Below are positions 1,198-50,264 of a DNA stretch of 64,000 nt, piece after piece. Numbering within the stretch: position 1 is the stretch's first letter; each line of letters opens with the position of its first letter. A model generated the notes under the pieces. It did not search any database. It saw nothing but the letters and a program-made list of their open reading frames with translations, and was not told where the DNA came from. The DNA comes from Verrucomicrobiales bacterium (GTDB taxonomy: Bacteria > Verrucomicrobiota > Verrucomicrobiia > Verrucomicrobiales > V1-33): contig JAQGPJ010000099.1 in NCBI GenBank assembly GCA_028293125.1, positions 1 to 64,000 of the forward strand, given 5' to 3'. Both the position numbers and the translations under genes were made by a program.

Positions 1198-1349
1198 GCC
1201 CTGAGTATTATCCCCATCCCGCGGCCCTGAAAGTCCCGGATGTTTCGGCTTGGGTTGCCCGGAATTCAGGGCTTCCTGTGATTTGTGCAGGACTGCCGCT
1301 TGGAATCTCCGTATCAACTTCAAGCAGTGGAACTGCAGGAAGCCCAAGC

Positions 1350-2318: not shown

Positions 2319-2374
2319 CTAATTGCGGGATTTCATTGAAATTAACAGAAACGGCTTTTAAATTATACAGCTGT

Positions 2375-12941: not shown

Positions 12942-15900
12942 TCAGTTCGGATTGGCGGAGAGGTAGGCGTCCACGTCGTTGGTCACGACCAGTTTGCCCC
13001 ACATGATCACGGCGTGGCCGGGGAAGGTGCAGACGTATTCATATTCCCCCTCCTGGGTGGGGGCGGTCAGCTGCAGCTTCTCCTTTTCGCCGGGCTCCAG
13101 CAGGTGGGTGGCGGCGATGGGTTTGTGGCCGCGCGGAATGTACTGCCGGCCCTGCTTGTCGCGGAGGTCGGGGGTCATGGTCATGGCCGCCTGGCCGATG
13201 TCGAGATGCTTGTTGGGCTCCACCACCACGAGATTGTGGGGCATGACATCCGAGTTCTCGAAGACGATCTCAAAGGCCTTGCCCTTCTCCACCACAAGGC
13301 GGCTGGTGTCGTAACGCAGCTGCTCGCGCACGGTCTTCACCACGAATACGCTGACGCCCAGGCTGCGCAGTTCCTTGCGGAGTCCGGCATTGCCCGCCAG
13401 GGTCGCCAGCTCCATGCCGAGCTGGTTCAGTTCCACAAAGCTCTGCTCACTGCGCCGGGTGGCCTCGACCGTTTTGGCGTAGGTGAGGATATCCTTCGCC
13501 AGCGGCTCCGCCAGCTCCTTATCCCAAGCGGCGCGGGGCAGCTGGTTGATGGCGTCCACCGCGGCTCCACGCTCCTGGCCGGCGCTGAGGTATTTGGCCA
13601 AGGTTTTGAAATTGGCGGGCGCGTTTTCCGGTCCCATCAGCGAGAGGGCGAAGAGCGAGGCTTTCAGACCGCCGCCGGTCGGTTTGCCCTTGACCAAGTA
13701 ATCCGTGATCCTGTCTTGGAACTGGACGCGGAGTGAGGGATCCAGAACGGAGCCCAGACCGCGCAGCAGCGCCTCGCGGTCTGTCGGGTTGGCGGCAGAG
13801 GCACTCCAAGCAGTATCCGGCTTGCCGTCGGCCAGTACCAGCGCGCCCCAGGCGCTGCCGCGCACGGCGGGCAGGTGGGCGCCCGTGGCCAGTTTGGCGA
13901 TGCCGGCGCGTCCGGCGGCGAGGTCCGCGGGAGGAGTGGCGGTGAGCAGCTTGCCCAGCTCCGCAGCGGCGGCGGACACGCTCTGGCCTTTGTTGTCCAA
14001 GCGGGCCAGATTGGCCACGATCTCATCGGTGCGCGTGGTTTTACGCAGGGTGGCCAGCTCACTGATGGCGGCCTCGCGAGTCGGCTGATCGTAGCTGCGG
14101 CGCTCCAGCTTCGCCAGCAGCACGGGCTCGGAGGGCTTCTGCTGGGCCAGGGCACCGTCATCCATTTTGGAGACGACCAGCGAGGCCAGCTCCGGATCCG
14201 CCGGCATGGCGTCGCCCTTCAGCACGGTCAGCAGCTGGCGGATGGTCTCCTTGTAGCAGTAGTTCAAATAATAATCGGACTCGAAGCGCAGGGTGCTGTA
14301 GGCCACCTCCAGCGCCTTGGCGGCATCCGCTCCCTTGAAGAAGCTGGCGGCGCGCACGGCCTCCAGGCGGACGCGGGGCGCGCTGTCGTTGGCCCCGGTC
14401 TTCAGCAGGTCCAAGGCGTTGGGAATGCGGTCGCGCTGATAGCAGACCACGCGGAGCGCTTGGGCGCGGGCGCGGGGGTCGGGGCTGCTGAGCACGGCAT
14501 TGATGAGCGGCTGGTTCACCACATTGTGCCACTGGTGGACCCAGAGGGCCTCCAGAATATGGTGGGCGTCCTTGATGTTGTTGGGGTCGAACTGCTTCAC
14601 CCACTGCTGCGTGGCGGCGATGACCTCGGAGGTTTCATGCTTGCTGAGCTCGATCTTGGCGCGCATGCGCACGTCGTTCTGGGGCTCCTTCAGCAGGTCG
14701 AGCAGTTTGACGATGGGCTCGCCGTCGATCTTTTTGATTTCCTGCAGCGGACGGCCCTCATAGGTGATGCGGTAGATGCGGCCGTGCTTGTGGTCGCGGT
14801 TGGGGTCGCGCAGGTGGTGCTGAAGGTGACCGATGAGCTGCTGGCTCCAGTCGCAGAAGTAGATGGAGCCGTCCGGAGCCACACTGACGGCGGAGGGGCG
14901 GAAGTTGGGATCGTCCGAGGAGATAAGATCGTCCGGCAGGGTCTCGCCTTTGAGGCCGGAGCCCTGCTCATCCACCTTCACGCGCCAGATCCCGAGGAAG
15001 CTGATGACGTTGCAGTTCAGAAAATTCCCCTGCCAGTCATCCGGAAAGTGGGAGCTGGTGAGGATATTGGTGCCGGGACAGGGACGGGAAGGACGTTGCC
15101 AGAACTCCTGCATGCCGGGGTGCTGGCCCTCGTCCAGATGGCCAGAGAAGGCGGGGCCGAAGTAGTTGGCGTTGCCGGTGGCGTCGGTGATAATGTCATT
15201 GCCCCAGTAGTCGAACACGCGGCCATGCGGGTTGGCGAAACCGTAGGGCACATAACGCTCGAACTTGCCGGTGAGGGGCTCGAACCGGTAAATGCAGCCG
15301 TCCTGGTTGCGCACCGGGCCGTTGTAGGTCTCGACATTGGTGCGGTGGAAAACACCGTCGCTGCAATAAACCGCTCCGCCGGGCTCCAGGCACATGGAGT
15401 TGGTCTCGTGGTGGGAGTCGGCGGCGTCCAGACCGTTGAGGATGCGCTCCTTGAAGTCCGCCACGCCGTCGCCGTCGGTGTCCTTCATGAACCACAGATC
15501 GGGTGACTGGATGAGGATGATGCCATCCTTGTAGAACTGGAAGCCGGTAGGGCAGTTCAACCCGCTGGCGAACTTGGTGATCTTCGCAGCCTTGCCCGTT
15601 TTGGGATCCATGTCGATGACCAGGATATGGTCACCCTGACGGTCACCGGGCACAGCTTCGGGATAGGTCGGCCAGGAGGCCACCCACAGGCGGCCTTTGG
15701 TGTCCCAGTTCATCTGCACGGGGTTGATCAGGTCCGGATTCGTCTTTTCGGACGCCACCAGCTCCACCCTGCAGCCGGGGGCCACCTTCATCCGCTTGAT
15801 GGCCTCCTCGGGATCCAGATAGGGGGTGACGTCCAGCTTGTTGGGATCCACGGTCTCCACCGGCGGCAGGTTGCTGTCATCCACCTTCAAGTCTCCTCCT

Positions 15901-16865
15901 TTGGCCACCGCATGGATACGCTTGTCGCGGTTGGCAGTCAGCAGATCGCGCTGACTCATCTCCTGCATCATGATGGTGTTGTTGGTCACGCCCTCGCCGG
16001 GAGCGGACTTCTCCTTGTAGGGGATGTGGCCGCGCTGGCCGTAGATGTTGTACTGGTCAACGGTGCGGTAGCGGTGATGCCACTCGTAGTTCTTGTCCAG
16101 CACCGCCTCCCGGATTTTCTGAAGCAGGGGATCGGTGACGGCGGGGGACTCGGCACCGAAGAGACCCTTGTACTGAATGGCAGCCAGCTTCTCATCGCCG
16201 AATTCATTCAGATGGATGCCATTGACCGTCAGACGCTTGTCCCCGCTGGTGGCATAAGCCGCCTGGGAGGTGGAGAAAAGATCCACGAACTGCACGCCTT
16301 TGGCCTTGGCCACCTCGCTCATGGCGGCGGTGTAGAGGGCGATGTTTTTATTGTTTGCCTCCCCGGTCGGGAAGTTGGGGCTTTTCAGGTCCTCGTGGGC
16401 GATGGGGGAGAAAATAATCAGTTTGGGGGCGCTGGCACCGTTGTATTTTTTTGAAAGAGTATGGTCAATGAAGCTCTCCAGATCCTTTTTAAACTTGGGC
16501 AGCCCCTCTTCCCCCTTGAAGGATTCATTGAATCCGAAATAGGCGAAAATGACATCCGCTTTGGCTTTGGTCAGCCATTCGTCGGACTCTGGCACGTCCA
16601 TGGAACGGATGCGCACGGTCAGCTCGTCGGCAGCGTTGGACAGATTCCGCATGGTGAGGTCCAAATCCGGATGGGTGCGGTAAATCATGGATTCCAGCCA
16701 GCCGTAATGCTGCTGCCGGTCCCCGAGGGTGTTGCCCACGCAGGCGATGCTGTTGCCTTTGGTCAGTTCCAGCTTTGCGGGCTGGGCCTGCTGGGCGTGG
16801 ACGAAGGGACTGGCGGTGATAGCCAGCAGGGGGATGGTATATCGCGGGTTCAGATTCCAATTCAT
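12942..16865 (-). CDS. 1307-residue SGNH / PVC-type dehydrogenase / HEAT / cupredoxin fusion
   Basis: A secreted multi-domain protein with a signal peptide (FVHAQQA). Residues 29-235 are SGNH-hydrolase-like (IACVGNTLGDR in place of GDS, FGFNES, NGIHLNEFGDEKL). About 350-680 is a PVC-type membrane-bound dehydrogenase beta-propeller (LINPVQMNWDTKGRLWVASW; MKDTDGDGVADFKER; ANPHGRVFDYWGND). About 690-1090 is an alpha-helical HEAT-like array. Residues 1175-1307 are a cupredoxin domain with likely type-1 copper ligands His1210 (MPHN), Cys1279, His1284 and Met1288 (CTFPGHAVIMWG). There is no CxxCH, so the copper domain replaces the c-type cytochrome found at this position in many relatives. It is probably a periplasmic sugar or alcohol oxidase passing electrons to copper; the substrate is unknown. 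Confidence 0.8.
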   Translation of the reverse strand: MNWNLNPRYTIPLLAITASPFVHAQQAQPAKLELTKGNSIACVGNTLGDRQQHYGWLESMIYRTHPDLDLTMRNLSNAADELTVRIRSMDVPESDEWLTKAKADVIFAYFGFNESFKGEEGLPKFKKDLESFIDHTLSKKYNGASAPKLIIFSPIAHEDLKSPNFPTGEANNKNIALYTAAMSEVAKAKGVQFVDLFSTSQAAYATSGDKRLTVNGIHLNEFGDEKLAAIQYKGLFGAESPAVTDPLLQKIREAVLDKNYEWHHRYRTVDQYNIYGQRGHIPYKEKSAPGEGVTNNTIMMQEMSQRDLLTANRDKRIHAVAKGGDLKVDDSNLPPVETVDPNKLDVTPYLDPEEAIKRMKVAPGCRVELVASEKTNPDLINPVQMNWDTKGRLWVASWPTYPEAVPGDRQGDHILVIDMDPKTGKAAKITKFASGLNCPTGFQFYKDGIILIQSPDLWFMKDTDGDGVADFKERILNGLDAADSHHETNSMCLEPGGAVYCSDGVFHRTNVETYNGPVRNQDGCIYRFEPLTGKFERYVPYGFANPHGRVFDYWGNDIITDATGNANYFGPAFSGHLDEGQHPGMQEFWQRPSRPCPGTNILTSSHFPDDWQGNFLNCNVISFLGIWRVKVDEQGSGLKGETLPDDLISSDDPNFRPSAVSVAPDGSIYFCDWSQQLIGHLQHHLRDPNRDHKHGRIYRITYEGRPLQEIKKIDGEPIVKLLDLLKEPQNDVRMRAKIELSKHETSEVIAATQQWVKQFDPNNIKDAHHILEALWVHQWHNVVNQPLINAVLSSPDPRARAQALRVVCYQRDRIPNALDLLKTGANDSAPRVRLEAVRAASFFKGADAAKALEVAYSTLRFESDYYLNYCYKETIRQLLTVLKGDAMPADPELASLVVSKMDDGALAQQKPSEPVLLAKLERRSYDQPTREAAISELATLRKTTRTDEIVANLARLDNKGQSVSAAAAELGKLLTATPPADLAAGRAGIAKLATGAHLPAVRGSAWGALVLADGKPDTAWSASAANPTDREALLRGLGSVLDPSLRVQFQDRITDYLVKGKPTGGGLKASLFALSLMGPENAPANFKTLAKYLSAGQERGAAVDAINQLPRAAWDKELAEPLAKDILTYAKTVEATRRSEQSFVELNQLGMELATLAGNAGLRKELRSLGVSVFVVKTVREQLRYDTSRLVVEKGKAFEIVFENSDVMPHNLVVVEPNKHLDIGQAAMTMTPDLRDKQGRQYIPRGHKPIAATHLLEPGEKEKLQLTAPTQEGEYEYVCTFPGHAVIMWGKLVVTNDVDAYLSANPN

Positions 16866-26440: not shown

Positions 26441-29400
26441 TCAAAGGGAGGGGGTTCCAGAGACTTTGAAGCGGAACCAGAGTTTGACATTGCCACCCAG
26501 CGGGGCAAGACTGCGCCATGTCTCCAGCACTGTGCCATCCGGCCGGGGAACAGAGCTGACCTTCTGAAACAGCAACGCGGCATCGGACCAAGTTTGAAGA
26601 TCGGTGCTGGCCTGGGGGGTAATGACCGCATCGGCGTCCGGACGGACCACGGCGCTGACCGTGACCCGGGAAGTGCCGTCCGCTGCGGACACACCAGGAA
26701 GGATTTGCGGGACGGAGGCGGCGGAGAGCGGCGAGGAGCCCAGCGCATACTCCGCAAAATTGGACACGCCATCGCCGTCGGTGTCGTCCGCCGGTGGCGG
26801 ATTGCCGTAGGCCGCGGCCCAGGTTGTGTAGGTCATGCCGCCTGTGCCTTCGGCGGCTCCGGGCGATCCTCCGGGCAGAGCGCTGGCCCGCCAGCTGGCC
26901 GCCAGATTTGGATCCGGCAGGGAGGCGGGATTTTTCAGCACCAGCGCATGCCCGCCGCCGTCGGCCTCCTCCGGCCAAGGAGCTTTGTCGTCATACTCAA
27001 AATCACGGATGGGAATGCCTGCGCCGTAGCTCAGCTTCAGCTGCTCACCGGCATTGCCAAGGGCGTCGCCGGCCTGCCATTCCCCGGCCACCAGCGCGCC
27101 ATTGGGCAGCGGGAGCGGGCCGTAGCGGGCGGCGAAAGCCGCCAGACTGCGCACGACCAGCACCCGCCGGCCGGGGTCAAGAGTGGTCACGGCACTGCCG
27201 GCGAAATCAAAATCGATGCCCTTGGTGAACCGGACCGGCGTGAGGTCCAGAGGAACGGAGCCCACATTCATCAGCTCCAGCCATTCGTAGGCCTCCGGGT
27301 CGGAGGCGGTCAGGCTTTCCTGCGTGGTGGGGAAGGAAGGATGATAATAAATCCGGGAAATGACCAGCGACTTCAGATAGTCCGTGATGTCCGGCTCCCC
27401 CGCTGTGAAGCTGACCGGCACGCTCCAGTGGCTCCAGCGGCCTGTAGAGTCCAGATGCCGCACCCGCGCCCGGTGGTTCCGCCCCGGACGGGCGGCGGAG
27501 GCCGGCGCGGTCAGAAGATCCGGCATGGTGGTCAGCACCTCCGACTGCCAGGCGTTCTCGATTTCATACGCCCGGGGCTGTGTGCGGTCGTACGGATTGT
27601 AGCCGAGGACGGACGGATCCGTGGCCTCGGCGATGCGCCACATGAGACCGGCGAAGGCGGCACCGTTTTGACCGGCGAAGGCGCTGCTGGTGAAGGACAG
27701 AGCATTCACCGGCACCGGGCCAGCGCCGCCGTCGGCGAGGGTGAGCACGGGCGTCGCCGGTATCAGCGCCTCCTCCGCGCTGGTCAGCACCCGGGCGGCA
27801 ATCACATTCCGCCGGGTGGTAATGTAATTCTTCATCCGCACGATCATCCCCGCAAATTTTCCCGACTCATTTTCCGGTGTGACCGGATCGTTCACGGCGG
27901 ACAGATAATAATGGTTCCAGCCCGCTTGGCCAGCATCCACAAAGGACGAGGTCATGATGGGGTTGTTGTCCCACATGGCGCGGTCGGCATCCACAAAGGA
28001 CGGCTGACCGGGCTGGTAAATGACGGATGCCATCTCGTCGATCAGCATGCCCGTCTGCTCTTTGGTGAAAAGAAGGTCTTGGACCTCCCGCACCCGGTTC
28101 CGCATCTCCATCCGCAGAGCCGGAATAGGTCCCGTGCCGGCTTGGGAGGGACCGAACACACGGGAGAAGAACGGTTCCGTGGAATTGGAGGAGGGCGACA
28201 GACCGGCAATGCCGGTGTCCGCCCGGTAGGCGTTGTCCTGCCAAGTCAGATCCAGATCCCACGGCAGTGCCGTCCATCGGGTGGTCAGGGGATTCCGGTA
28301 ATAGAAGTAGTTTTTGCCATCCCCGATGTCGTAGTGGTGGATGCAGTCGATGATGCTGCGGTAGTTGTAGTAGTTGGGCAGATCGCAGTTCGCCCGCCAC
28401 CAGGCCTCCGTGCTGGTGTAGCGGAGAAACGCCGTGAGGTCGCTTTTGTTTTTCGGTCCCGCGGGACCGGTGTGGTTCAGTTCCCCGGTGCCGTTCTCCA
28501 TCTTGTAGAGATTGCCGTCCGGCAGTCCGTGCTCATCCAGAAACTGGCCATCCATCTGCTCGATGCCCAGATACAGCCCCTGAAAGTCATCGTCGTACTG
28601 GCTGGCGGAGTCGTTGGTCTCGGACGGATGCTCCACGATACGGAAGTGGACAAACTGGGTGTTCTCCGCCGGCAGGCCCGTGAGTTGGAAGAGGCGGAAG
28701 CCGACACTTTCAAACAGTCCCTGCTCGCCGCGCATGCCGGAGCTTCCCTGCTGAATGCAGGCAGAGAAGTTCAGCTTTTTCCACTTTTGGGCATACTTCC
28801 AACCGTAATTGTCCCGCGCCTGGAAGTCATGGCCCTTGTTGAAATCGAACTTCCACATATTCTTGCCCATGGCGAACCGCCAGACCCCGCCGCGGGCGCG
28901 GAACCGGATGTGGTCGTAAACATGGCCGTCGTAACAGAGCGCGCCCTGCCAGTTGTAGAGACTGTGGGTGTATTTGCCCGCAGTGGGATTTTGTTTGGCA
29001 CCGTCGGCTTTGAACACCGGGACAGACTGCGCATTGGCGTGATCCTCCACGCGGGTGATAAAATGATAGGCCGGCACCGTGGCCAGCAGGGAGGACGGGT
29101 ATGTCACCGCCGGAGCGGCGGCTTTGGCCTTGCCAGTCCAGTCGGGCAGAGCGTCGTAAACATAATAAGCGAAGTTCGGCTGCGGGTCGTCCCCATATGG
29201 TGCCCGGACCTCATTTCCGGAATCGTCGGAGGCGGTGATGCGGTAGCGGATCAGCCGGCGGTGGGTCTGTGTCTCAGCGGGAATGACCGCTGTGTAAACG
29301 GCATCGCCCGCCACCGCATCGCCGCCGGTGCCATTGTCGGTCATGGGCAGGGTGACCCAGGAGGCCGGGGCCGCGTAGCGGGGATCCGTGAGTTTGATGT

Positions 29401-30178
29401 AGTCCCCCGGCTCCACCATCTGCCAGGCCAGCGAGACCGCACCAATACCGTTGGGATCCGTGATTTTGGCGGTGACGCGGACTGGTTTGGCGGAGGGCAC
29501 CCATTCCGGCGGTGGCCCCTCCATCATCGGAATGTGCTCCACTTGGCGGATGGCAGGAGACGAATTGGAGGACAGCACAGAGTTCGCCCGGCCGGGTGTG
29601 GGTCCTTTGCCTTCCGCGCCGCCGGTCCCATCCGACCGCCGCCAATGCCCGCCGAGATTGTTGTCCAGCGCGGGATTGATGAGCTCAATGGAATAATTCG
29701 GCGGATCGCCTACGGTGGGCCATGGGAAACCCTGGGCGTATTCCACCTCATCCAGCTTCTCCCCCGAGGCCGAGCGCAGAGTGATGATCTCACCGCTGCT
29801 TTTCAGCTGTCCAAAAACCGGCGGCGCCACTCCGGCATTCCAGTTGAATACGGCAGGCCCACTGAGTCCGAATTTGCTCTGGATCACGGCCGGATCCCCG
29901 CACACCACCACAAAACCGCCCGGCGGCACCACGGTCCCCGCAGGGAATTTCACAGAGACGCCGTCGCTGAAATAGCATCCTGACAGATCAGCGGGAGCAC
30001 TGATTGAGGGATTGTGGAGCTCGATGAATTCCGAATGCACGGTCGGATCGTCCTCGTCGTAGTGGATTTCATTGATCACCACCTGCTGGGCCAAAGCGGG
30101 AAGGGAAAGCAGTCCTGGCACCAAGCCGGCGAGGCGCGCGGCGGTGCACAGGAAACGGCGCAGTGACAGAGAGGGCAT
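26441..30178 (-). CDS. Secreted lamin-tail / CotH-kinase multi-domain protein
   Basis: A 1245-residue exported protein with a signal peptide ending LPALAQQ. Domains: lamin-tail (LTD) at about 22-150 (VVINEIHYDEDDPTVHSEFI), a Big/fibronectin-like region (about 245-330), a CotH spore-coat-kinase-like domain (about 410-660: RFRARGGVWRFAMGKNMWKF ... LPWDLDLTWQD), a second LTD (about 938-1085) and, near the C-terminus, a calcium-loop motif DTDGDGVSNFAEYALGSSPL followed by a beta-rich end. CotH proteins phosphorylate protein Ser; LTD modules are extracellular. The ATG at 30178 has one of the best ribosome sites here (aggggtgga). The whole architecture is characteristic of Verrucomicrobiota, to my knowledge. 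Confidence 0.8.
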   Translation of the reverse strand: MPSLSLRRFLCTAARLAGLVPGLLSLPALAQQVVINEIHYDEDDPTVHSEFIELHNPSISAPADLSGCYFSDGVSVKFPAGTVVPPGGFVVVCGDPAVIQSKFGLSGPAVFNWNAGVAPPVFGQLKSSGEIITLRSASGEKLDEVEYAQGFPWPTVGDPPNYSIELINPALDNNLGGHWRRSDGTGGAEGKGPTPGRANSVLSSNSSPAIRQVEHIPMMEGPPPEWVPSAKPVRVTAKITDPNGIGAVSLAWQMVEPGDYIKLTDPRYAAPASWVTLPMTDNGTGGDAVAGDAVYTAVIPAETQTHRRLIRYRITASDDSGNEVRAPYGDDPQPNFAYYVYDALPDWTGKAKAAAPAVTYPSSLLATVPAYHFITRVEDHANAQSVPVFKADGAKQNPTAGKYTHSLYNWQGALCYDGHVYDHIRFRARGGVWRFAMGKNMWKFDFNKGHDFQARDNYGWKYAQKWKKLNFSACIQQGSSGMRGEQGLFESVGFRLFQLTGLPAENTQFVHFRIVEHPSETNDSASQYDDDFQGLYLGIEQMDGQFLDEHGLPDGNLYKMENGTGELNHTGPAGPKNKSDLTAFLRYTSTEAWWRANCDLPNYYNYRSIIDCIHHYDIGDGKNYFYYRNPLTTRWTALPWDLDLTWQDNAYRADTGIAGLSPSSNSTEPFFSRVFGPSQAGTGPIPALRMEMRNRVREVQDLLFTKEQTGMLIDEMASVIYQPGQPSFVDADRAMWDNNPIMTSSFVDAGQAGWNHYYLSAVNDPVTPENESGKFAGMIVRMKNYITTRRNVIAARVLTSAEEALIPATPVLTLADGGAGPVPVNALSFTSSAFAGQNGAAFAGLMWRIAEATDPSVLGYNPYDRTQPRAYEIENAWQSEVLTTMPDLLTAPASAARPGRNHRARVRHLDSTGRWSHWSVPVSFTAGEPDITDYLKSLVISRIYYHPSFPTTQESLTASDPEAYEWLELMNVGSVPLDLTPVRFTKGIDFDFAGSAVTTLDPGRRVLVVRSLAAFAARYGPLPLPNGALVAGEWQAGDALGNAGEQLKLSYGAGIPIRDFEYDDKAPWPEEADGGGHALVLKNPASLPDPNLAASWRASALPGGSPGAAEGTGGMTYTTWAAAYGNPPPADDTDGDGVSNFAEYALGSSPLSAASVPQILPGVSAADGTSRVTVSAVVRPDADAVITPQASTDLQTWSDAALLFQKVSSVPRPDGTVLETWRSLAPLGGNVKLWFRFKVSGTPSL

Positions 30179-30322
30179 TCCACCCCTGCTAATGGATTTC
30201 TCATCGGATGTGAAGCCGAAAGGAAAAATCCAAGGCCGGGAAAACGGCGGCATCCCGCAATGCCCGGCTGATCCCTCCCAAAAAACCGGCGGAAATCCCC
30301 AACGGACGCGCAAGGGTGGCGC

Positions 30323-30751
30323 ATGATTGATTCCAACGCGCTTGCCTCCCTGCCCCACGGGCCGGGATTCCGTTTTGTTGATGAGGTTTTGGAGTTGGAG
30401 CCGGGACAATCCGGGACCGGCCGCTATACGGTGCGTGGGGACGAGGCGTTTCTAAGCGCGCATTTTCCGGGAAATCCTCTAATGCCCGGCGTGATCCTCA
30501 TTGAGGCCTTGGCGCAGCTCGGCGGGGTAGTGGCGCAATCCGATCCGAAAACAGCCCCGCTGCGGGAGGTGCGGCTGGCGGCGGTGCAGACGGCAAAGAT
30601 CACGGGCAGCGCCGTTCCGGGTGAGATCCTGACCATTCAGGCGAAGGTCACCGGACGGCTGGGACCGCTGGTGCAGGTGCAGGGTATGGTGGAGACCGGC
30701 GGGAGACGCCTGCTGGATGCACGAATCACGCTGAGCGGTACGGTGGGGTGA
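30323..30751 (+). CDS. FabZ-like 3-hydroxyacyl-ACP dehydratase
   Basis: A 142-residue hot-dog-fold protein. The FabZ active-site pair is visible: His47 in AHFPGNPLMPGVILIEALAQ and Glu61 of the same motif, preceded by LPHGPGFRFVDEV. It would dehydrate 3-hydroxyacyl-ACP in fatty acid elongation. It stands alone, away from other fab genes, so it may serve a secondary pathway. It is divergent from the CotH gene and converges with the debranching-enzyme gene. Confidence 0.85.
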   Translation: MIDSNALASLPHGPGFRFVDEVLELEPGQSGTGRYTVRGDEAFLSAHFPGNPLMPGVILIEALAQLGGVVAQSDPKTAPLREVRLAAVQTAKITGSAVPGEILTIQAKVTGRLGPLVQVQGMVETGGRRLLDARITLSGTVG

Positions 30752-30804: not shown

Positions 30805-33800
30805 TCACCGCTTCTCCAGCAGTTCCCGCACCCGGGCCCATTCCGTGACCGACCACGCCTGGGAGCCGCAGCCGCGCGGGGCGTGCGGCCAGGCGCCATC
30901 CACGACCTCCTCCAGCGATCCCAGCGAGAACCGGCGGAACAGCGGGGCGGACGAGGCCAGAATGCCTGCGGCGCGGGGCCGGGCGGCCTCCCCCCACACC
31001 ATCATCATTGCCTCCGCCAGCATGGGCATCAGCCAGGGCCAGCCGGTGCCGTTGTGGTAGGCGGGCTTGCGGCGCGTATCCTCGTCGCCTTCATAATGTC
31101 CTTGGAAAGGGGCGTGCGGGTCGTTGAGCAGCTGTCCGTGCCGCTCCACCGGCAGCGGGAACACTACCGGGCGGTCCGCCAGGGTGCGCAGGGCTCCGGG
31201 GATCAGCAGCTCCAGGCAGCTGGTCAGGATACCGCTTTGGAAAGTGGGGTCTGTGACGGCTCCCAGCGTGATGGCCAGCAGCTGATTGGGCCGCAGATGG
31301 TCATCGGCCACCGCTGAGGCGGCGCTCTGGCCGGAGGCGGCGTGCAGGCAGTCGCTCAGATACGCTTGGCCGGGGCGTGTGAAGCGGGTCAGCAGGGAAT
31401 TGCGCACCTGGCCGGCCAACCGTGCCCACACAGGGTCGGAGTCGATGCGCGCCAGCAGCCGCAGGGCCGCAAACCACAGCGCCTGAATCTCGATGGGATA
31501 TCCCTCACGCGGAGTGCCGGCGGGGAAGTTGGTGTCCATCCAGGTGAAGTGCGGGGGGCTGTAAATCAGCCCGGTCTCCGGATCCATACGAATGCCGTTG
31601 GGGGTGCCGGCCGCATAGCCCTGCCCCAGCGAGATCAGCACCTCCCGGATGGTCCGTCCGCCGGCTTTCTCATCCAGAAAAGCGCCGCTGCCCTCCCGTT
31701 CGAGCAGATCCTCCACGCCTGTGAAGAACCACAGCGGGGCGTCCGAGGTGTCGCGGTTGGAGTCATCCCCGCCGCGGATCATGTTGGGCAGCGTGCCCTG
31801 ATGCTCATAGCGTGCGAAGGTTCTGAGAATGTCCCGCACCGCCTCCCGCTCCCCCGCCGCCGCGATGCCGCGCAGACAGATGAGGGTGTCCCGGCCCCAG
31901 TCCAGAAACCACGGGTAGCCGGCGATAACCGTCAGGGAGTCATCGCGCTTCACAATGAACTGCCGCACCGCCGCCTGAAGTGTGAAGCCGGCGGGAGCCT
32001 CCGGAGGAGGGGCTGCGGGAAGAGTCTCCTGCCCGTGGCGCGTCAGCACCGCCGTAAGGTGCACCCGTTCCCCGGAAACCAGAGGCGCCTGAAAATAGCC
32101 GGGGCTGAAAAGATCGGAGTGCGCGCCCAGCCCCCGCGAGGCGTCAATAGCGTGGTCCACCGTCATGCGCTCGGCCTGACGGACAAAATGCGCGCCCCCG
32201 TCGGTGCGCACCGTGAGGGTGCCCGCATGGCAAGGCATGGCGAAGCCGTCGGAGGAGGCTGACAGCGCCCCGTCCAGATGCGGCATTTCGTGGTCCGGGA
32301 GGGTCCACTTGTCATGGAATGCCCGGTCCTCCACATCCGGTCGGGCGATCAGTGTGACCGGACCGGCATTATCACCCGGTTCCCGCACGAAGCGCAGACA
32401 CACGGCATCGCGTCCATGGGTCAGATGCACGGTGGCGGTCAGGCGCACCCACTGTCCGTCGCCGCAGGGCAGACAGAAACACCACTCTGCCGTGTCCGCC
32501 GCCAGGAGTTTCACGCCTTCCATCCACTTGGCGCAGACCTCCGTGGAAAAGCCCCGCCGCATCAGCCACAGCCGGCAGCGGTTGAGCATCATGCGGCGGT
32601 CCACGGGGAAATCCGGGTGCGGGTTGGCCGCCAGCAGGGAATCATACTGTGACCGCACCGTGCCCCAGGCGGCTCGGGTGTGGACCATGGCCCCGGTGCC
32701 ATTGGTCAGCACCAGATGCAGATCCGGCTGGGCACGAACCTCGGCACCCGTGGCTTCACAGACAGGATCAGCCAGCGGAGGCGGCAGCAGCAGGGGCAGC
32801 GTCCCGCGGGTCAGAGTGCCGCTGCCGGGCACGCGCAGAAAAGCCGCCGCCGGACCGGTATATCCCTGCGGGCGGGGCACGATGGCGAAGTGGAATGCGC
32901 TCCCCGGCAGACTCAGGCCTTCGGCCAGATGCAGCGTGCCGGCATTGACGGAATAACGGAAAGGGCCGGGGGCTGTGAGCATCAGCAGGTCCCCCGGCAG
33001 CCAGACCACCTCCCGGCGCTGGTCCTGCGGCCAGGACGCCGTGGTCAGCGGAGCGAAAGGCAGCCCTGACAGCTCCCGGCACCAGGCGGCGGGATCGGCC
33101 GTCAGCGGAGCGGAGGGAAGCACCGCGTCCGGTTTTCCCAGCCAGAGCGCCAGCCGCCGGGCCAGCGCCGCGGTCTCCTGGCGCACGGACGGTGGCTCAC
33201 CGACCGGCACCAGCTTTGCCGCGCACAGCACTACCACGCGTCCGGGTGCCAAATGCACGGTGCCCTCCTTGTCAGTCCATTCGACCGTCACCGGCTCTCC
33301 GGTCAGAAAGCAGACGCCGTGAACGCCGAAGGAAAAATCCTCCCGCAGCCAGGCCGCCTGCGCCTCCGCGGCGGTGTCCAGATTGATGAGCACCAGCAGC
33401 GTCTGCGACCGGTCACGGGAGATGCGCCGCAGAGCGATGCCGGACCCGCTGCTGCGGGTGATGAGCTGCAGCTCCGCCCCGGCCTCAAAAGCCGGCTGCT
33501 TCAGCAACTCCTGCAGGGCGGCGATATGGGAAATGAGATTCGGCTCCGCACCCTCGTTCAGGGAGGTGGCCCCATGCACACGGATCTGCTCCGTGGCCAG
33601 CCATTCCCCGCCACAGGTCAGGCCCCAGCCGCCCGCCGGGCTGCACAGGGCGGCCACCGCTTGGCGCAGCTTGGCCCAGGCGGGGGAAACCGCCGCCAGC
33701 CGGGAATTGTCGTGTGTCTCCGCGATGTTGATCTGATATCCCTCCATCCGGGACTGGGCGATGGCCTGCGGCAGATACCAGTCCATGGCGCCCCGGCTCT

Positions 33801-34944
33801 CGTTCTGGAACAGCTCGCTGTAGGCCCAGTTCAGCCCATTGCCGGCCAGCAGGTCCAGCATCACGGGGATGGGACCTCCCAGCCCCTCCAGGAAAAACAC
33901 CGTGTCGGGGAACTCCGTGCGCACTTTGGCCGAGATGTAGCGCCACACCGGGGCCGGCACAAAATACCCGGCATCGCAGCGGAACCCGTCCACCCCTTGG
34001 CGGCACCAGTAGAGAAACACCTCCGCCATCTCCCGCCACAGGGCCTTGTGCGCGTAGTCCAGCTTCACCAGATCCGCCCAGACCACGCCCCAGGCGCCGG
34101 GCGAGTGGAAAGTACCGTTCTCATTCCGGACAAACCACTCCGGATGGTGCGCCATGAGCTGCGAGGCCCAGCCGGTGTGGTTGATGGGGATATCGATGAA
34201 CAGCCGGGCGCCGCGGGCATGGATGCCGTCCGCCATTTCGCGGAACTGCTGAAGCGGTGTGGTGCGGTGGTCGAACTCCGCCAGCGCGGGATCCACGTTC
34301 TTGAAGTCCAGAGCAGCGAAGGGGCTGCCGTAGCGGCCCATGCGGGCATGGGTAGTGGGCACCAGAAAGGGGGGCAGGACCAGCACGATGCGGAAGCCCA
34401 AGGCGCCGAGAATGTGGTCCAGCCGCCGGGTCACGTCCCGAAAGGTGCCGGAGGGCGGGATCACGGTGTAGCCCAAATTGTCCAGCGGCCTCAGATCCGC
34501 ATCCGGGAGATCAGAGGAGTTGTCTCGGAACAGCCGGGGAAAGGCGGCGTAGATGCTGTTGCCGGCCACGGTCCAGGCGGGCTCCACCTTGACGCGGGTG
34601 TTGCCCCCGCCATCAGGCCACACGGGGGCTTGGTCCTCTGAAACATGCAGGAAGGCCTTGCCCTCGAACACACCCACATCCGTCAGCGGGAGGGTCAGGG
34701 TCCAGCGGCGGGGACCATCGGGGAGCATGGGCAGATCCTCCCAGTCCAAGCCGGGCGGCGGGGCGTCCTCCTCCACGGCGGCGATGGTTTCCGCGCGCTG
34801 GCGGGCGGCCTGCCGGAGATTGGTCCGCAGAAAGGCGGTGCCGGGCATTTCCCCGGACAATTCCAGGCGGAAAGTTACGGAATCCCCTGCATGCAGGATC
34901 ATGGCGGCGCCGGGAGCGGGGGATTGGGTCAGGAAGGTTGCCAT
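30805..34944 (-). CDS. Bifunctional glycogen-debranching enzyme: GH13-like plus amylo-alpha-1,6-glucosidase
   Basis: A 1379-residue soluble protein that joins two catalytic modules, like eukaryotic glycogen debranching enzyme. The N-terminal GH13-type barrel (about 130-500) shows LFIDIPINHTG, nucleophile Asp324 in VDGFRCDAG, acid/base Glu353 in FFLEGLGG and Asp412 in AETHDNSRLA. A long middle part (500-970) is beta-rich and of unclear role. The C-terminal GDE_C/GH133 module (about 975-1379) shows GYPWFLDWGRDTLICLRG, FTWMDTNFP and GYPIEIQALWF. It would transfer a maltooligosaccharide and then hydrolyse the alpha-1,6 branch in glycogen breakdown. It is monocistronic and lacks a signal peptide. 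Confidence 0.8.
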   Translation of the reverse strand: MATFLTQSPAPGAAMILHAGDSVTFRLELSGEMPGTAFLRTNLRQAARQRAETIAAVEEDAPPPGLDWEDLPMLPDGPRRWTLTLPLTDVGVFEGKAFLHVSEDQAPVWPDGGGNTRVKVEPAWTVAGNSIYAAFPRLFRDNSSDLPDADLRPLDNLGYTVIPPSGTFRDVTRRLDHILGALGFRIVLVLPPFLVPTTHARMGRYGSPFAALDFKNVDPALAEFDHRTTPLQQFREMADGIHARGARLFIDIPINHTGWASQLMAHHPEWFVRNENGTFHSPGAWGVVWADLVKLDYAHKALWREMAEVFLYWCRQGVDGFRCDAGYFVPAPVWRYISAKVRTEFPDTVFFLEGLGGPIPVMLDLLAGNGLNWAYSELFQNESRGAMDWYLPQAIAQSRMEGYQINIAETHDNSRLAAVSPAWAKLRQAVAALCSPAGGWGLTCGGEWLATEQIRVHGATSLNEGAEPNLISHIAALQELLKQPAFEAGAELQLITRSSGSGIALRRISRDRSQTLLVLINLDTAAEAQAAWLREDFSFGVHGVCFLTGEPVTVEWTDKEGTVHLAPGRVVVLCAAKLVPVGEPPSVRQETAALARRLALWLGKPDAVLPSAPLTADPAAWCRELSGLPFAPLTTASWPQDQRREVVWLPGDLLMLTAPGPFRYSVNAGTLHLAEGLSLPGSAFHFAIVPRPQGYTGPAAAFLRVPGSGTLTRGTLPLLLPPPLADPVCEATGAEVRAQPDLHLVLTNGTGAMVHTRAAWGTVRSQYDSLLAANPHPDFPVDRRMMLNRCRLWLMRRGFSTEVCAKWMEGVKLLAADTAEWCFCLPCGDGQWVRLTATVHLTHGRDAVCLRFVREPGDNAGPVTLIARPDVEDRAFHDKWTLPDHEMPHLDGALSASSDGFAMPCHAGTLTVRTDGGAHFVRQAERMTVDHAIDASRGLGAHSDLFSPGYFQAPLVSGERVHLTAVLTRHGQETLPAAPPPEAPAGFTLQAAVRQFIVKRDDSLTVIAGYPWFLDWGRDTLICLRGIAAAGEREAVRDILRTFARYEHQGTLPNMIRGGDDSNRDTSDAPLWFFTGVEDLLEREGSGAFLDEKAGGRTIREVLISLGQGYAAGTPNGIRMDPETGLIYSPPHFTWMDTNFPAGTPREGYPIEIQALWFAALRLLARIDSDPVWARLAGQVRNSLLTRFTRPGQAYLSDCLHAASGQSAASAVADDHLRPNQLLAITLGAVTDPTFQSGILTSCLELLIPGALRTLADRPVVFPLPVERHGQLLNDPHAPFQGHYEGDEDTRRKPAYHNGTGWPWLMPMLAEAMMMVWGEAARPRAAGILASSAPLFRRFSLGSLEEVVDGAWPHAPRGCGSQAWSVTEWARVRELLEKR

Positions 34945-43432: not shown

Positions 43433-44974
43433 TTATTTCGGTAACGCTCCCGCCCCGGTGCCGGCACCTGTTTCTGTGCCCGTGCCTGTCGCGGAGGAGG
43501 AGGCCCCGGCGGGCTGCGGGGAATCCGATTCCCCCGCCCCGCCATCCGGGGTGCCGGACGGGTTGGTGACGGTGGTGGTCACCGCCGGCGGCGGAGTCAG
43601 GCGGTCCTCCCAGGTGTGCAGCTCATCGGAGGCGTTGGCCACTCCGATATCCTTCATCAAGGACTCGCAGCGCGCCCGCCACGCGGCATAATCAGGAGCC
43701 TTGCGCGCGGCGTCGGCGGTATTGGGAAAAAACAAATAGGACACCTGAAGGTCGCTGACCGGGCGCTTGTAGGGGCTGGCCGTGGGATCGATTTCCCGCG
43801 CAATCCGCAGGCTGGCCTCCCCCACCTTGATAGTGGGACCGTAATCGCCCACCACAGCGGGCAACAGTTTATCCTTGTAAATCACCACCACAAAATCCCC
43901 GATCTGCGGCAGCCAGTCCTTGCTCCCCCAATAGTTGCGGAAGGACATGGGGATGACCACAAAGGGATCCTCCTGGCCGATCAGGTAGCTGCGGCGCTGA
44001 AGGTCCGCGATGACTCCAGGCAGCTGCGCCACACGGGACGTCAGGGTGTCCTTCTCCGCCTTTGACAGTCTGGCGGATTTCAGCCGCTCTTTCGCCTCCG
44101 CCATTTCCGCCTCCAGTCGGGGGATCACCGGATTGACTTTGGTGGTGGTTTTGGCCCAGCCGTAGCTGGTGGAGGGTTGGAAGAAAGCGGATTTGAGGAT
44201 GGCCTCGTCAAACACCGGCATGCGGTCGCCGTCGCTGCCGTCGGACACTACATCCATGTCCGCCTGCATCAGCAGCACCTTGCGTTTGCTGACGGGATGC
44301 GTCAGCTCCAGCACGGTGTCCAAGTCGAAGAAATTGTGCCGCGTCAGAGCACGGTCCAGCCGCTCCAGATTGTTCTCCAGCGACTCCTTCTTCACCTTGT
44401 AGAGGTGCTGGTAAAGACCGGAGACCTTTCCCTTCTGGATCATGGGCTCCAGATCCGGCAGCAGATTGCCGATCTGCGGGTTCAGCGAGCGCATCTGCTC
44501 CATGGTGGAGGCCGGTTTGGGCAAATGGATACGCACGGTGATCTCCGCCGTGTAGGCCTCCGGCAGGGCGCGCTCCTCCGTGGCGGTGGCTCCGTCCACC
44601 GTGATCAGTTTGGTTTTGAGTCCGATCCCGCTGAACATGGCCGTGAAATCCCCGCGGGGCCCCGGCGGCGGGCCGGAGGGCATGGAAGGCGGCGGCGTGG
44701 ACACCGGCACCTCCACCCGCTTTTCCACAATCCTCTCCTGCACCACCACCCGCTCTTTTGGCTGTGTGGCGGCGGATGTCCGCTCCTCCGGAAAAAGCCG
44801 GCGCGCCGCCCCCCGTCCCGCCCGCTGACCCCAGGGAGTCAGAAGCAGCACGGCCATCGCGCCCGCCATCAGCGCCAAAATTCCCCACAGCAGTCCGGAC
44901 GACCGGCGACGCCGGTTGCGTCCCCACTGGGATGGGCCTGCGCTGTCATCGGGGCGATAGGAAAAATCCGGCAT
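43433..44974 (-). CDS. Membrane-anchored GH75-like (chitosanase-type) protein
   Basis: A 513-residue protein with an N-terminal Arg-rich patch, one TM helix (about 28-46), a Pro-rich linker and a domain resembling family GH75 chitosanases: LMQADMDVVSDGSDGDRMP, RSYLIGQEDPFVVIPM, IGDFVVVIYKDK and VVGDYGPTIKVGEASL. The Asp in GDYGP and Glu in GEAS would be the catalytic pair. A coiled-coil insert (LEAEMAEAKERLKSARLSK) interrupts the domain, and the C-terminus is Thr/Gly/Ala-rich. Chitosan is unlikely to be the substrate in the periplasm, so a peptidoglycan-type target is possible. The leader (ccaaccccctccacccc) is G-poor. Confidence 0.6.
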   Translation of the reverse strand: MPDFSYRPDDSAGPSQWGRNRRRRSSGLLWGILALMAGAMAVLLLTPWGQRAGRGAARRLFPEERTSAATQPKERVVVQERIVEKRVEVPVSTPPPSMPSGPPPGPRGDFTAMFSGIGLKTKLITVDGATATEERALPEAYTAEITVRIHLPKPASTMEQMRSLNPQIGNLLPDLEPMIQKGKVSGLYQHLYKVKKESLENNLERLDRALTRHNFFDLDTVLELTHPVSKRKVLLMQADMDVVSDGSDGDRMPVFDEAILKSAFFQPSTSYGWAKTTTKVNPVIPRLEAEMAEAKERLKSARLSKAEKDTLTSRVAQLPGVIADLQRRSYLIGQEDPFVVIPMSFRNYWGSKDWLPQIGDFVVVIYKDKLLPAVVGDYGPTIKVGEASLRIAREIDPTASPYKRPVSDLQVSYLFFPNTADAARKAPDYAAWRARCESLMKDIGVANASDELHTWEDRLTPPPAVTTTVTNPSGTPDGGAGESDSPQPAGASSSATGTGTETGAGTGAGALPK

Positions 44975-47524: not shown

Positions 47525-48934
47525 TCAAAGCTGGTGCGTCCCGGAACCATAAACCCCCGCAGGCACCTCCGCCGGCTCCGGTCCGTCGTGGGAAAGCACG
47601 GCGTCGCCCTCGATCACCACATCCGCCGTAAAGCGCAGCGGGCCTTTCACCGTCAGCTTTTTGCACGCCAAAAGACCGGGCACGCCCCCGGCCAGCAGGG
47701 CCTCCACGCCGTCCACCAGCTTGTAGTGCGCGCTGTCCAGATCCACCTCCGGCGGCACGCCATCGCGGGCGGGGTCGAGCTCCAGACGGAAATCCGGCGT
47801 CAGGCGGCAGGCGTCGGAGCGGATGACGAGAAGATCCGAAGTCGTCTTCACCGGGGCAAAGCGCCGGCGGCTGACCTCAATGGCGCCGGCACCGGGGAAG
47901 GACTCGATGGCTGCCCCCATGGCGGTCTCCAATTGAAAGACCGGCGGGCTCTTTTTGTCGCGCGGGTCGGCGGTTTTGGAATTCCGGATCATCGGCAGGG
48001 GGATCAGGCCGGCATTGGCGTCCAGCGTCCGCTTCAGATGATCCAGCCGGATCCACAGATTGTTGGTGTTGAAATACCGGTGCCGCGTGATGTCCTGAAA
48101 AGATTCCTGATCCTCGTCCGGACACTGGGCGCTCTCCCGCAGAATCAGCCGGCCATCGCGGGGCCGCATCGCTAAATGGCCGCCCTTGCGGTCCGCCGCC
48201 GTGCGCCGGGTGACCTCCATGAGGAACGGCGCACCGCTTTCCGCGAAATACGCCAGCAGTGCCGGGTCCAACGTGGCCCCCAGGTTGTCGGAGTTCGACA
48301 CAAAAGCGTATAGAATCCCCTTCTCCAGCAGCCGGTCCAGCCAGCCGCTGCCGGCCAGACTGGCATACAGATCGCCGTGACCGGGCGGACACCATTCCAT
48401 CTCCGGATTGGCGGGCCAAGCCAGCGGGGTCAGATCGCCGGTGTTGACTTTCGGCACCCGGTTCTGGATGAACTCCAAGTCCTCCGGTGCTCCCAGAGCA
48501 GGATAGACTGACAGTGCCTGCCGGGTGTCCTCCGAGGTCGAAAAGCTGTTCATCAGCAGAAAAACCGGCACTCCGCTGCCGCCCGCCCCCGCCCGCAGAT
48601 GCAGAATCTGTTTGGCGATCAGGTCCAGAAAGCTCAGTCCCTCGCGGACCGTCAGCAGGCTTTTCGCTTTTTCCAGCCCCATGCCTGTGCCCAGGCCGCC
48701 GTTCAGTTTGATCACCACCGTGCGCTGCAGCAGCGGCAGCAGGTCCGCCTCCGCCGGCACCGGCAGCGTCTCCGCCACGGGCAACTGGGTCACCGGCACC
48801 AGATCCGATTCCGGAATCAGCCCGGTCTCGTTCCGCTCCAGCGCCCGGAAATTTCCCTCAAACGCCCGCACCGCCGCCTCGCTCAGGCCATCGGCGCGCA
48901 TCTTTTCAGCAAAAGGAAGGAATCGGTCGGACAT
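47525..48934 (-). CDS. UTP-sugar-1-phosphate uridylyltransferase (UDPGP family)
   Basis: A 469-residue nucleotidyltransferase of the eukaryotic-type UGP family, which makes UDP-glucose (or UDP-GlcNAc) from UTP and the sugar phosphate. The uridine-binding loop VIKLNGGLGTGMGLEKAK is clear, with CPPGHGDLYASL, SNSDNLGATLD and TRHRYFNTNNLW downstream, and a left-handed beta-helix-like C-terminus. The frame is open to 49108; I chose the Met at 48934 (MSDRFLPFAEKM), which follows a G-poor leader. With the next gene it fits a glycan or glycogen synthesis set. Confidence 0.88.
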   Translation of the reverse strand: MSDRFLPFAEKMRADGLSEAAVRAFEGNFRALERNETGLIPESDLVPVTQLPVAETLPVPAEADLLPLLQRTVVIKLNGGLGTGMGLEKAKSLLTVREGLSFLDLIAKQILHLRAGAGGSGVPVFLLMNSFSTSEDTRQALSVYPALGAPEDLEFIQNRVPKVNTGDLTPLAWPANPEMEWCPPGHGDLYASLAGSGWLDRLLEKGILYAFVSNSDNLGATLDPALLAYFAESGAPFLMEVTRRTAADRKGGHLAMRPRDGRLILRESAQCPDEDQESFQDITRHRYFNTNNLWIRLDHLKRTLDANAGLIPLPMIRNSKTADPRDKKSPPVFQLETAMGAAIESFPGAGAIEVSRRRFAPVKTTSDLLVIRSDACRLTPDFRLELDPARDGVPPEVDLDSAHYKLVDGVEALLAGGVPGLLACKKLTVKGPLRFTADVVIEGDAVLSHDGPEPAEVPAGVYGSGTHQL

Positions 48935-49088
48935 GTTGAGAAAAATGGATGGCAGGTTGACAGAGGAAACCGCCGCCGCCCTGTCAGGACGCGGCAGCCA
49001 CTTCCTTCCTGCCATACTCAGTCCCAGCGTTCTGCAAAGTCCGCGATTTGAAAAAATGCAACACAGCCTCGCCTGTCCGGCATGCACA

Positions 49089-50264
49089 TCACAGGAATAA
49101 ACGGGCACGGGCCAGCTCCAGCGCCTCGTCGTAAAATCCCTCCAGAATCTCCGTCTGGCGGGCGCGTTCGAATTTCGCCTCCACCTCCTCCCGCGCCGCG
49201 CGGGCGAGCGCTGAGTAGCGCGCCGGATCCGGCAGCACCTTCAATGCGGCCTGTGCCAGCGCCGCGGCGTCCCCCTCCTCCACCAGAAACCCGCTCACCC
49301 CGTGGGTCACGGCTTCGGGAATGCCGCCGTGCCGGGTGGCCAGGGCGGGCATGCCGGAGGCCATGGCTTCAAGCAGGGCGTTGGGCACCCCCTCGCGGTT
49401 GCCGTCGGCGGGGGTTTCGCTGGGGTGGAAAAAAAAGTGGCCGCTGTGGATCAGATCCCGCAGGCCGGACTGGTCCAGAAAGCCAGGAAACGCTACTCGG
49501 TCCGCCAGCCCCGCCGCCGTGGCGGAGGCCTGAAGCTCCGCCAGCAGCGGCCCTCCACCGGCCAGGGTAAGCCGGGCGCGGGGCCATGACTTCGCGATTT
49601 CCCCAAAAGCCCTCAATGTGGTCCAGAGCCCTTTTTTCGGCACCAGCCGGCAGGCCTGCACAAAATGCCACGCGCCGTCGGCGGGAGGCGTGCGCGGCGC
49701 AAACGGCCACGCATCCAAGGGAATGCCGGTGCGCTGAAGCCTTAGCTTCTCCGGCGGGCAGCCCAGCTCTCTCAGGCCCTCCAGCAGGGACTCCGATCGC
49801 GCCAGCACCAAGGTTGAGCAGCGGAACACCTCCCGCAGCGCCTCCCGCCAAGGGCCGTGGCCCGCATCCACTCCCACATCCGCCCCGTGGAAGGACACCA
49901 CCACTGGACGCGGGCAGGCTTGGAGAAACGGCAGCAGCTGCACAGCGATGTGGCCGAAGAAGACATGCACCACCTCCCCCTCCAGCCGCATGACCTCATG
50001 GAGCAGCCGCCGCACGCGGGAGTGGGGAATGACCACCGGCACGCGGCGCACCTGCCGGAACCAGAACCGCCGCAGGTTTTTCCAGCGTGGCGGCGGCAGC
50101 ACCGCCACCCGCCGGTGCTCCTGGGGAAAGGGAAAGCGGTCGGCGTTCTCCCGCTTCTGGGTGATGACCACCGGTTTCCAGCGGGACAGGGACACGATCT
50201 GCCGGTGGACATGCTGCATGTCCGCTTTCAGAAAATCCTGGCAATAACACGCGACGACAGGCAC
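49089..50264 (-). CDS. Family 4 (GT-B) glycosyltransferase
   Basis: A 391-residue cytosolic glycosyltransferase. The C-terminal donor-binding domain shows VQACRLVPKKGLWTTLRAF, LAGGGPLLAELQ and the signature HPSETPADGNREGVPNALLE followed by ALATRHGGIPEAV. It transfers a sugar from a nucleotide donor to an envelope glycan; donor and acceptor are unknown. It starts with GTG at 50264 and lies 154 bp upstream of the UDP-sugar pyrophosphorylase on the same strand, so a supply role for that enzyme is plausible. Confidence 0.85.
   Translation of the reverse strand: MPVVACYCQDFLKADMQHVHRQIVSLSRWKPVVITQKRENADRFPFPQEHRRVAVLPPPRWKNLRRFWFRQVRRVPVVIPHSRVRRLLHEVMRLEGEVVHVFFGHIAVQLLPFLQACPRPVVVSFHGADVGVDAGHGPWREALREVFRCSTLVLARSESLLEGLRELGCPPEKLRLQRTGIPLDAWPFAPRTPPADGAWHFVQACRLVPKKGLWTTLRAFGEIAKSWPRARLTLAGGGPLLAELQASATAAGLADRVAFPGFLDQSGLRDLIHSGHFFFHPSETPADGNREGVPNALLEAMASGMPALATRHGGIPEAVTHGVSGFLVEEGDAAALAQAALKVLPDPARYSALARAAREEVEAKFERARQTEILEGFYDEALELARARLFL

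Follow-up and report, generated by a model that had tools for sequence, protein, structure and literature searches.

A gene in a Verrucomicrobiales bacterium raises the question of whether a fused glycogen debranching enzyme (GDE) like that of eukaryotes exists in bacteria and, if so, how it arose. We analysed the first 64,000 nucleotides of contig JAQGPJ010000099.1 (assembly GCA_028293125.1; this whole stretch is hereafter the window), in which a single open frame with an ATG start, at 30805-34944 on the minus strand, encodes a protein of 1379 aa that joins a glycoside hydrolase family 13 (GH13) half to a C-terminal GH133 half. Eukaryotic debranching enzymes have been described as GH13_25-GH133 proteins and their bacterial and archaeal relatives as GDE_N-GDE_C proteins (PMC7965971, PMC4236520). 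An initial annotation of this DNA had proposed one chain uniting the two modules, which the open frame bears out, and had treated it as a curiosity of one bacterium.

A widespread family of bacterial fusions

The GH13-GH133 fusion is a widespread bacterial family and not a one-off. A family scan of genome contigs returned at least 582 stretches, at least 577 of them relatives, and the best 80 were kept. These were 41-69% identical to the window protein in their best segment and matched it over nearly its full length, from residues 1-7 to 1368-1379 in 78/80 (L044 matched from residue 15 and L037 from residue 35), with stop-to-stop frames of at least 1367 aa in 79/80 loci (1154 aa in L069). Record titles assigned them to Verrucomicrobiota, Kiritimatiellota, Lentisphaerota, Desulfobacterales and other "Deltaproteobacteria", plus two Bacteroidota. 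In an alignment of 81 rows, the window included, residues D324, E353, D412, R322 and H411 of the GH13 half and D1019, D1137 and E1346 of the GH133 half were identical in 81/81. The Pfam domains Alpha-amylase, GDE_N and GDE_C were each matched in all 31 of the 81 members that were scanned.

The two halves also occurred together genome by genome. In a set of 115 genomes from the phylum, all 52 with this type of GDE_C carried the GH13 half too, and the parts shared one frame in 50/52; in G067 they were split over two contigs and in G107 they lay partly in another frame. No full-length stand-alone GH13 half was found outside the fusions among the matches listed for these 115 genomes, where the best non-fusion match to the GH13-half profile covered part of it at 121 bits (the gene in locus L107, discussed below). 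Five GDE_C proteins of 739-967 aa from the same phylum were considered as unfused halves or intermediates and rejected, because their GDE_C is ~25-29% identical to that of the window and they form a separate clade. Among 198 Bacteroidota genomes, a fusion-length frame with a strong GDE_C score occurred only in the centre genome, itself chosen for its fusion. The GDE_C proteins of five other loci from that set (L132-L134, L138, L139), with frames of 980-1181 aa, were taken to represent a different long architecture that is not the fusion. We found no earlier report of this bacterial fusion in the open-access full-text literature, subscription journals and preprints being outside the scope of that search.

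Near-exclusion of MalQ and GlgX

The fusion nearly excludes MalQ and, within this phylum, GlgX. Searches with both GDE_C and the GH13 half called the fusion in 52 genomes of the phylum set and not in the other 63. MalQ (GH77) scored above cut-off in 3/52 fusion genomes vs 56/63 others (Fisher p = 4e-21) and GlgX in 1/52 vs 30/63 (p = 6e-9), with an additional full-length GlgX-like match below cut-off in G040; these genome-level p values ignore kinship. Counting by family, which reduces that effect, MalQ was present in 1/12 families with the fusion vs 16/21 (p = 2e-4) and GlgX in 1/12 vs 12/21 (p = 0.009). The exceptions among fusion genomes of this set all belong to one family, f21. A second set comprised 108 genomes of the desulfobacterial phylum, with eight fusions for which a strong GDE_C score and the frame length were the sole criteria, and there MalQ was found in 0/8 fusion genomes vs 58/100 others (p = 0.0015).

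Within the window's own class, 36/38 other sampled genomes had MalQ and 0/38 had the fusion. MalQ gave no match in the source genome (6.48 Mb, 99.1% complete) or in the three nearest fusion genomes (L001-L003), a pattern that fits gain of the fusion and loss of the old pathway. The GlgX model found a single weak match in the source genome (E = 3e-12), presumably its branching enzyme, which the same model scores at E = 3.6e-12 (45 bits).

The GH13 half

The GH13 half extends to about residue 577 and is GlgE-like throughout. An N-terminal beta-sandwich resembling the GlgE N-domain (residues about 5-121; 34582-34932, minus strand, as for all features of this gene) has approximate limits taken from the structure model and from a GlgE alignment that starts at residue 1. 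It is followed by the catalytic barrel (residues about 122-480; 33505-34581), within which the Alpha-amylase match (PF00128) covers residues 135-329, and by a C-terminal beta domain, again GlgE-like (residues about 490-577; 33214-33477; approximate limits from the model and structure comparison). The model of residues 1-745 had a mean predicted local distance difference test (pLDDT) score of 89.9. GlgE (3zss) aligned with it at Z 36.1 over 515 residues (root-mean-square deviation, rmsd, 5.5), spanning residues 1-577, and 3dhu at Z 33.9 over 394 residues (rmsd 2.8). By sequence, the best solved structures among the matches listed were 3dhu, 4gkl and GlgE. Eukaryotic GDE was absent from the GH13-half matches listed, that is, from the best 50 by structure and from the best 60 of 162 and best 60 of 93 by sequence.

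The catalytic residues first proposed for this half stand up, in canonical contexts: the nucleophile D324 (33973-33975), which aligns with the same-motif Asp of GlgE and 3dhu, the acid/base E353 (33886-33888), and the transition-state stabiliser D412 in the motif ETHDN (33709-33711). The phosphate-binding site of GlgE is altered. The ligands N371, Y376 and N414 of Mycobacterium thermoresistibile GlgE are said to be conserved across all GlgEs (PMC4663749). Read off an alignment with S. coelicolor GlgE, these positions are A284, W289 and A325 in the fusion, identical in 81/81 rows. The GlgE Pfam domains PF11896 and PF21702, present in five GlgEs of the phylum, were not matched on the window protein in a Pfam scan to E 1.

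The eukaryotic glucanotransferase domain, hDGE_amylase (PF14701), scored 20.7 bits on the window protein, below its cut-off of 27, and reached E 0.01 or better in 12/31 members (best 9e-7).

The GH133 half

The middle of the chain (about residues 500-970), initially described as lacking any recognised domain, contains both the end of the GH13 half and a GDE_N domain (PF12439, 66.9 bits) at residues 745-961 (32062-32712); residues about 585-740 are without assignment. A helical and beta region at about 585-725 (32770-33192) was well predicted by the model and has no Pfam domain. The C-terminal module was correctly recognised as GDE_C/GH133, an (alpha/alpha)6 domain at residues 994-1369 (30838-31965; PF06202, 204.9 bits). 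The model of residues 590-1379 (mean pLDDT 95.1) aligned with the GDE of Candida glabrata (CgGDE) at Z 36.1 over 432 residues (rmsd 3.5) and with the Thermococcus amylo-1,6-glucosidase 7vma at Z 34.5 over 493 residues (rmsd 4.3).

By profile alignment, D1137 in the motif TWMD (31534-31536) is the counterpart of the catalytic D1241 of CgGDE, and D1019 in WGRD (31888-31890) that of D1078. Both CgGDE residues matter for glucosidase activity, D1078 by way of its yeast counterpart, as reported for that enzyme (PMC4837477). E1346 (30907-30909) is the proposed general base, matched to CgGDE E1492 from position only.

Family models placed this half nearer to prokaryotic enzymes. The archaeal-type model TIGR01561 gave 125.2 bits on the window protein (cut-off 364.15) and the eukaryotic model TIGR01531 31 bits (cut-off 1399.55), and hGDE_N and hGDE_central had no match at E 0.01 in the 31 members scanned. 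Over 190 shared columns, the window was ~40% identical on average to 16 stand-alone prokaryotic GDEs, and mean identity to CgGDE was 36% for those stand-alone enzymes and 31% for 33 fusions. In the PDB, eukaryotic GDE chains made up 8/9 matches of the GH133-half profile and were the only strong ones. Of the eukaryote-like fused enzyme first proposed, the order of GH13 followed by GH133 holds, while the protein falls outside PF14701, TIGR01531 and the hGDE_N/hGDE_central domains; structure prediction, suggested as a check, gave a GlgE-like GH13 half, a CgGDE- and 7vma-like GH133 half and a middle region that is not domainless.

Phylogeny of the two halves

The GH133 tree contained 33 of the 81 fusions, 16 stand-alone GDEs, 13 proteins of another GDE_C type and one eukaryote, represented by alignment pieces of CgGDE over 190 columns. 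The fusions formed one clade (support 100/100), and CgGDE grouped with some of the stand-alone GDEs (80/94) on a branch of 3.86, a placement that is weak because of the 190 columns and the very long branch. The GH13 tree, made by a quick method with Shimodaira-Hasegawa-like approximate likelihood ratio test (SH-aLRT) support only, held 33 fusions, five Pfam-confirmed GlgEs and 14 other GH13 proteins, and no eukaryotic GDE. Here too the fusions formed one clade (SH-aLRT 99) and the five GlgEs of the phylum fell in another; the branching of the fusions, the L107 and 3dhu groups and GlgE relative to one another lacked confident support. Both runs gave long-branch warnings.

Subgroups common to the two trees were the window with L001-L003, L005 with L023, L007 with L026, L021 with L063, and L076 with L078. 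The distances of the two halves correlated over 3240 pairs, which are not independent (Pearson 0.76, Spearman 0.61). With a single clade for each half and matching subgroups, one fusion event is likely, and the simplest account is that the two halves, once fused, descended and were transferred together. A search of viral contigs with one piece of CgGDE gave no match.

Proposed function and alternative explanations

We regard the protein as probably a bacterial indirect glycogen debranching enzyme, with glucanotransferase and amylo-1,6-glucosidase activities, that replaces GlgX and MalQ and stems from one fusion separate from that of eukaryotes. In the proposed sequence, a TIGR02094-type phosphorylase would shorten the outer glycogen chains; the GlgE-like GH13 half would then cut an alpha-1,4 bond near the branch by a retaining mechanism (D324 as nucleophile, E353 as acid/base) and hand the released short chain on to a different non-reducing end; and the GH133 half, with D1137 as acid and probably E1346 as base, would hydrolyse the single alpha-1,6-linked glucose that remains. 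No maltotetraose or other malto-oligosaccharide would be freed by this route, which would make GlgX and MalQ dispensable, and they are usually absent. We infer transfer by the GH13 half from its GlgE-like fold and from the loss of GlgX and MalQ, as expected of an indirect debrancher. The protein is probably cytoplasmic; by eye, the 1379-aa sequence has no obvious signal peptide.

Several results weigh against this reading. Motifs alone cannot separate GH13 transferases from hydrolases, and both activities are here predicted from sequence. MalQ scored above cut-off in 8/76 fusion genomes behind the 80 loci, although in two of the eight it was represented by short fragments only, and the desulfobacterial set shares two of the 76 genomes; together with the 3/52 above, this means that replacement is not strict. 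Neither MalQ nor GlgX was present in 6/63 non-fusion genomes of the phylum set, the desulfobacterial counts for GlgX (0/8 vs 18/100) were not significant (p = 0.35), and many of the genomes compared are drafts. Among unfused GH13 proteins of the phylum, the nearest one found was L107 (430 aa), which scored 68.9 bits with hDGE_amylase (cut-off 27) and 54.8 with Alpha-amylase. In the GH133 tree, with its partial eukaryotic sequence, a clade of the fusions plus CgGDE was not rejected (approximately unbiased, AU, test, p = 0.36).

The GH13 half could instead be an alpha-1,4-hydrolase of maltogenic or amylase-like type that clips short chains, leaving GH133 to remove the stub and the TIGR02094-type phosphorylase or other enzymes to take up the freed maltose and maltotriose. 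Its closest sequence matches among those listed, 3dhu and 4gkl, are annotated alpha-amylases, and TIGR02094 phosphorylases adjoin the fusion, the two scanned giving 700-722 bits with the maltodextrin phosphorylase model, below its cut-off of 1500. Free malto-oligosaccharides would nevertheless favour retention of MalQ, which is nearly absent, and the nearest fold to the whole half is GlgE, a transferase; we judge simple hydrolysis unlikely. We also considered the half as a GlgE-type maltosyltransferase that uses maltose 1-phosphate and couples glycogen synthesis with debranching, GlgE being the top structural match of residues 1-577. With the phosphate ligands replaced by the invariant A284, W289 and A325, and the five Pfam-confirmed GlgEs of the phylum in another clade, this identity was rejected and appears highly improbable.

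As to origin, the initial annotation had left the choice between an independent fusion and an ancient transfer. A fused ancestor shared by bacteria and eukaryotes through gene transfer would account for the identical domain order, and it draws on the AU result for the GH133 half, on the PDB matches of the GH133-half profile and on the hDGE_amylase score of the unfused L107. Yet bacterial amylases and GlgE come closest to the GH13 half, with no eukaryotic GDE in the best 60 of 93 matches; the window protein itself is below the hDGE_amylase cut-off; GDE_N is present in 31/31 members with no hGDE_N or hGDE_central; the archaeal-type model outscores the eukaryotic one; and CgGDE is closer to stand-alone prokaryotic GDEs than to the fusions. 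L107 too has its best PDB matches in 3dhu (86 bits) and GlgE (66 bits), with eukaryotic GDE chains at 33 bits at best. Such a transfer therefore seems improbable, and an origin of the bacterial fusion separate from the eukaryotic enzyme, probably by assembly from bacterial parts, is favoured but not proven. Phylogenies of the separate halves, also suggested at the outset, gave a single fusion clade for each, with the GH133 link to eukaryotes dependent on a partial sequence.

Unfused bacterial GH13 proteins deserve mention in their own right. The L107 gene lies at 1114-2403 (minus strand) of its locus, and a second, L123 (975-1934, minus strand), scored 53.7 bits with hDGE_amylase, also above cut-off. 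With both above that threshold, the contrast of Alpha-amylase and hDGE_amylase does not separate cleanly, and the glucanotransferase domain of eukaryotes may have bacterial relatives in L107 and L123.

Genomic neighbourhood

Genes resembling GlgA, GlgB or GlgP flanked the fusion in 44/80 loci (68/80 have at least 2 kb on a side), with the order fusion-GlgP-GlgA in L105 and fusion-GlgA-GlgB in L106, and a MalQ query had no match beside the fusion in the 80 loci. Canonical GlgP gave only weak matches beside the fusions (23-26% identity, 15 loci), as expected because the neighbouring phosphorylase is of another type. In the source genome, a TIGR02094 phosphorylase, GlgA and a GlgB-like enzyme are adjacent on a different contig (C76). 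The branching enzyme of this genome (L103, 7088-9508, minus strand) has an N-terminal extension of ~190 residues, of low complexity by eye, falls short of the cut-off of every GlgB model listed, and could belong to the eukaryote-like GH13_8 type.

Among the window neighbours scanned, the only one recognised as a glycogen enzyme was a protein of the UDP-glucose pyrophosphorylase family ~12.6 kb away. This UTP-glucose-1-phosphate uridylyltransferase (47525-49108, minus strand; PF01704, 393 bits) belongs to the UDPGP family, which we take to be typical of eukaryotes, and is possibly a source of UDP-glucose. The next gene downstream of the fusion on the same strand (26441-30409, minus) encodes a protein of 1322 aa that combines a Lamin Tail Domain with a CotH kinase domain. 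Other genes of the window encode a 1307-aa protein (12942-16865, minus strand) with a GDSL-like stretch, a PVC-type heme-binding region, HEAT repeats and a C-terminal azurin-like copper domain; a protein matching the fungal chitosanase family GH75 at 39 bits (43433-44974, minus strand); and a 1260-aa protein (50385-54167, plus strand) with PSCyt2 (DUF1549), PSD1 (DUF1553) and Laminin_G_3 domains.

Implications

The arrangement of two active sites in a single chain, said to be peculiar to eukaryotes such as animals and fungi, occurs in many bacteria. We lean, by a modest measure, towards the broader view that bacteria reinvented indirect debranching in the eukaryotic style when one event joined a GlgE-like GH13 to a prokaryotic GH133, and that the resulting protein spread over several phyla and replaced GlgX and MalQ, also in the window's class, where its lineage stands alone among mostly MalQ-bearing sampled relatives. 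If so, the rule that direct debranching belongs to bacteria and indirect debranching to eukaryotes would be false. Should the predicted activities hold, the family would have solved one biochemical problem for a second time, would supply bacterial models for the logic of two active sites that underlies human GDE deficiency, and would provide a route for bacterial glycogen breakdown without malto-oligosaccharides.

Comparison with known systems

GlgX and TreX would act at the same step of glycogen breakdown as the fusion, but are GH13 enzymes of the isoamylase type that attack the 1,6 bond directly; the GlgX model TIGR02100 gave 10.2 bits on the window protein (cut-off 640.9), and GlgX and the fusion rarely share a genome within this phylum. 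Among the matches listed, the bacterial alpha-amylases 3dhu and 4gkl (AmyB) rank first by sequence for the GH13 barrel (Z 33-34), but their chains of 449 and 422 residues align only from about residue 123 and have no GH133. GlgE (GH13_3) shares the fold of its N-domain, barrel and C-domain with residues 1-577, but the fusion has its invariant A284, W289 and A325, and THD, with a His before the region IV Asp, where the aligned GlgE has TPD. Prokaryotic stand-alone GDEs (TIGR01561; 7vma) share GDE_N and GDE_C above cut-off; unlike those sampled (16 frames of 643-888 aa), the fusion scores below the TIGR01561 cut-off and forms its own clade.

The eukaryotic enzyme AGL/Gdb1 (GH13_25-GH133; CgGDE 5d06/5d0f) also carries GH13 then GH133 on one chain of ~1400-1500 aa, has a C-terminal fold in common with the fusion (Z 36) and has its D1241 and D1078 kept there as counterparts, and the same two-step debranching would be expected of both. 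It differs in that the fusion is below the PF14701 cut-off, has the prokaryotic GDE_N without a match to hGDE_central, and often lies within bacterial glycogen gene clusters. In several tests of membership the fusion scores outside the eukaryotic family, yet its likely logic resembles that of the eukaryotic enzyme.

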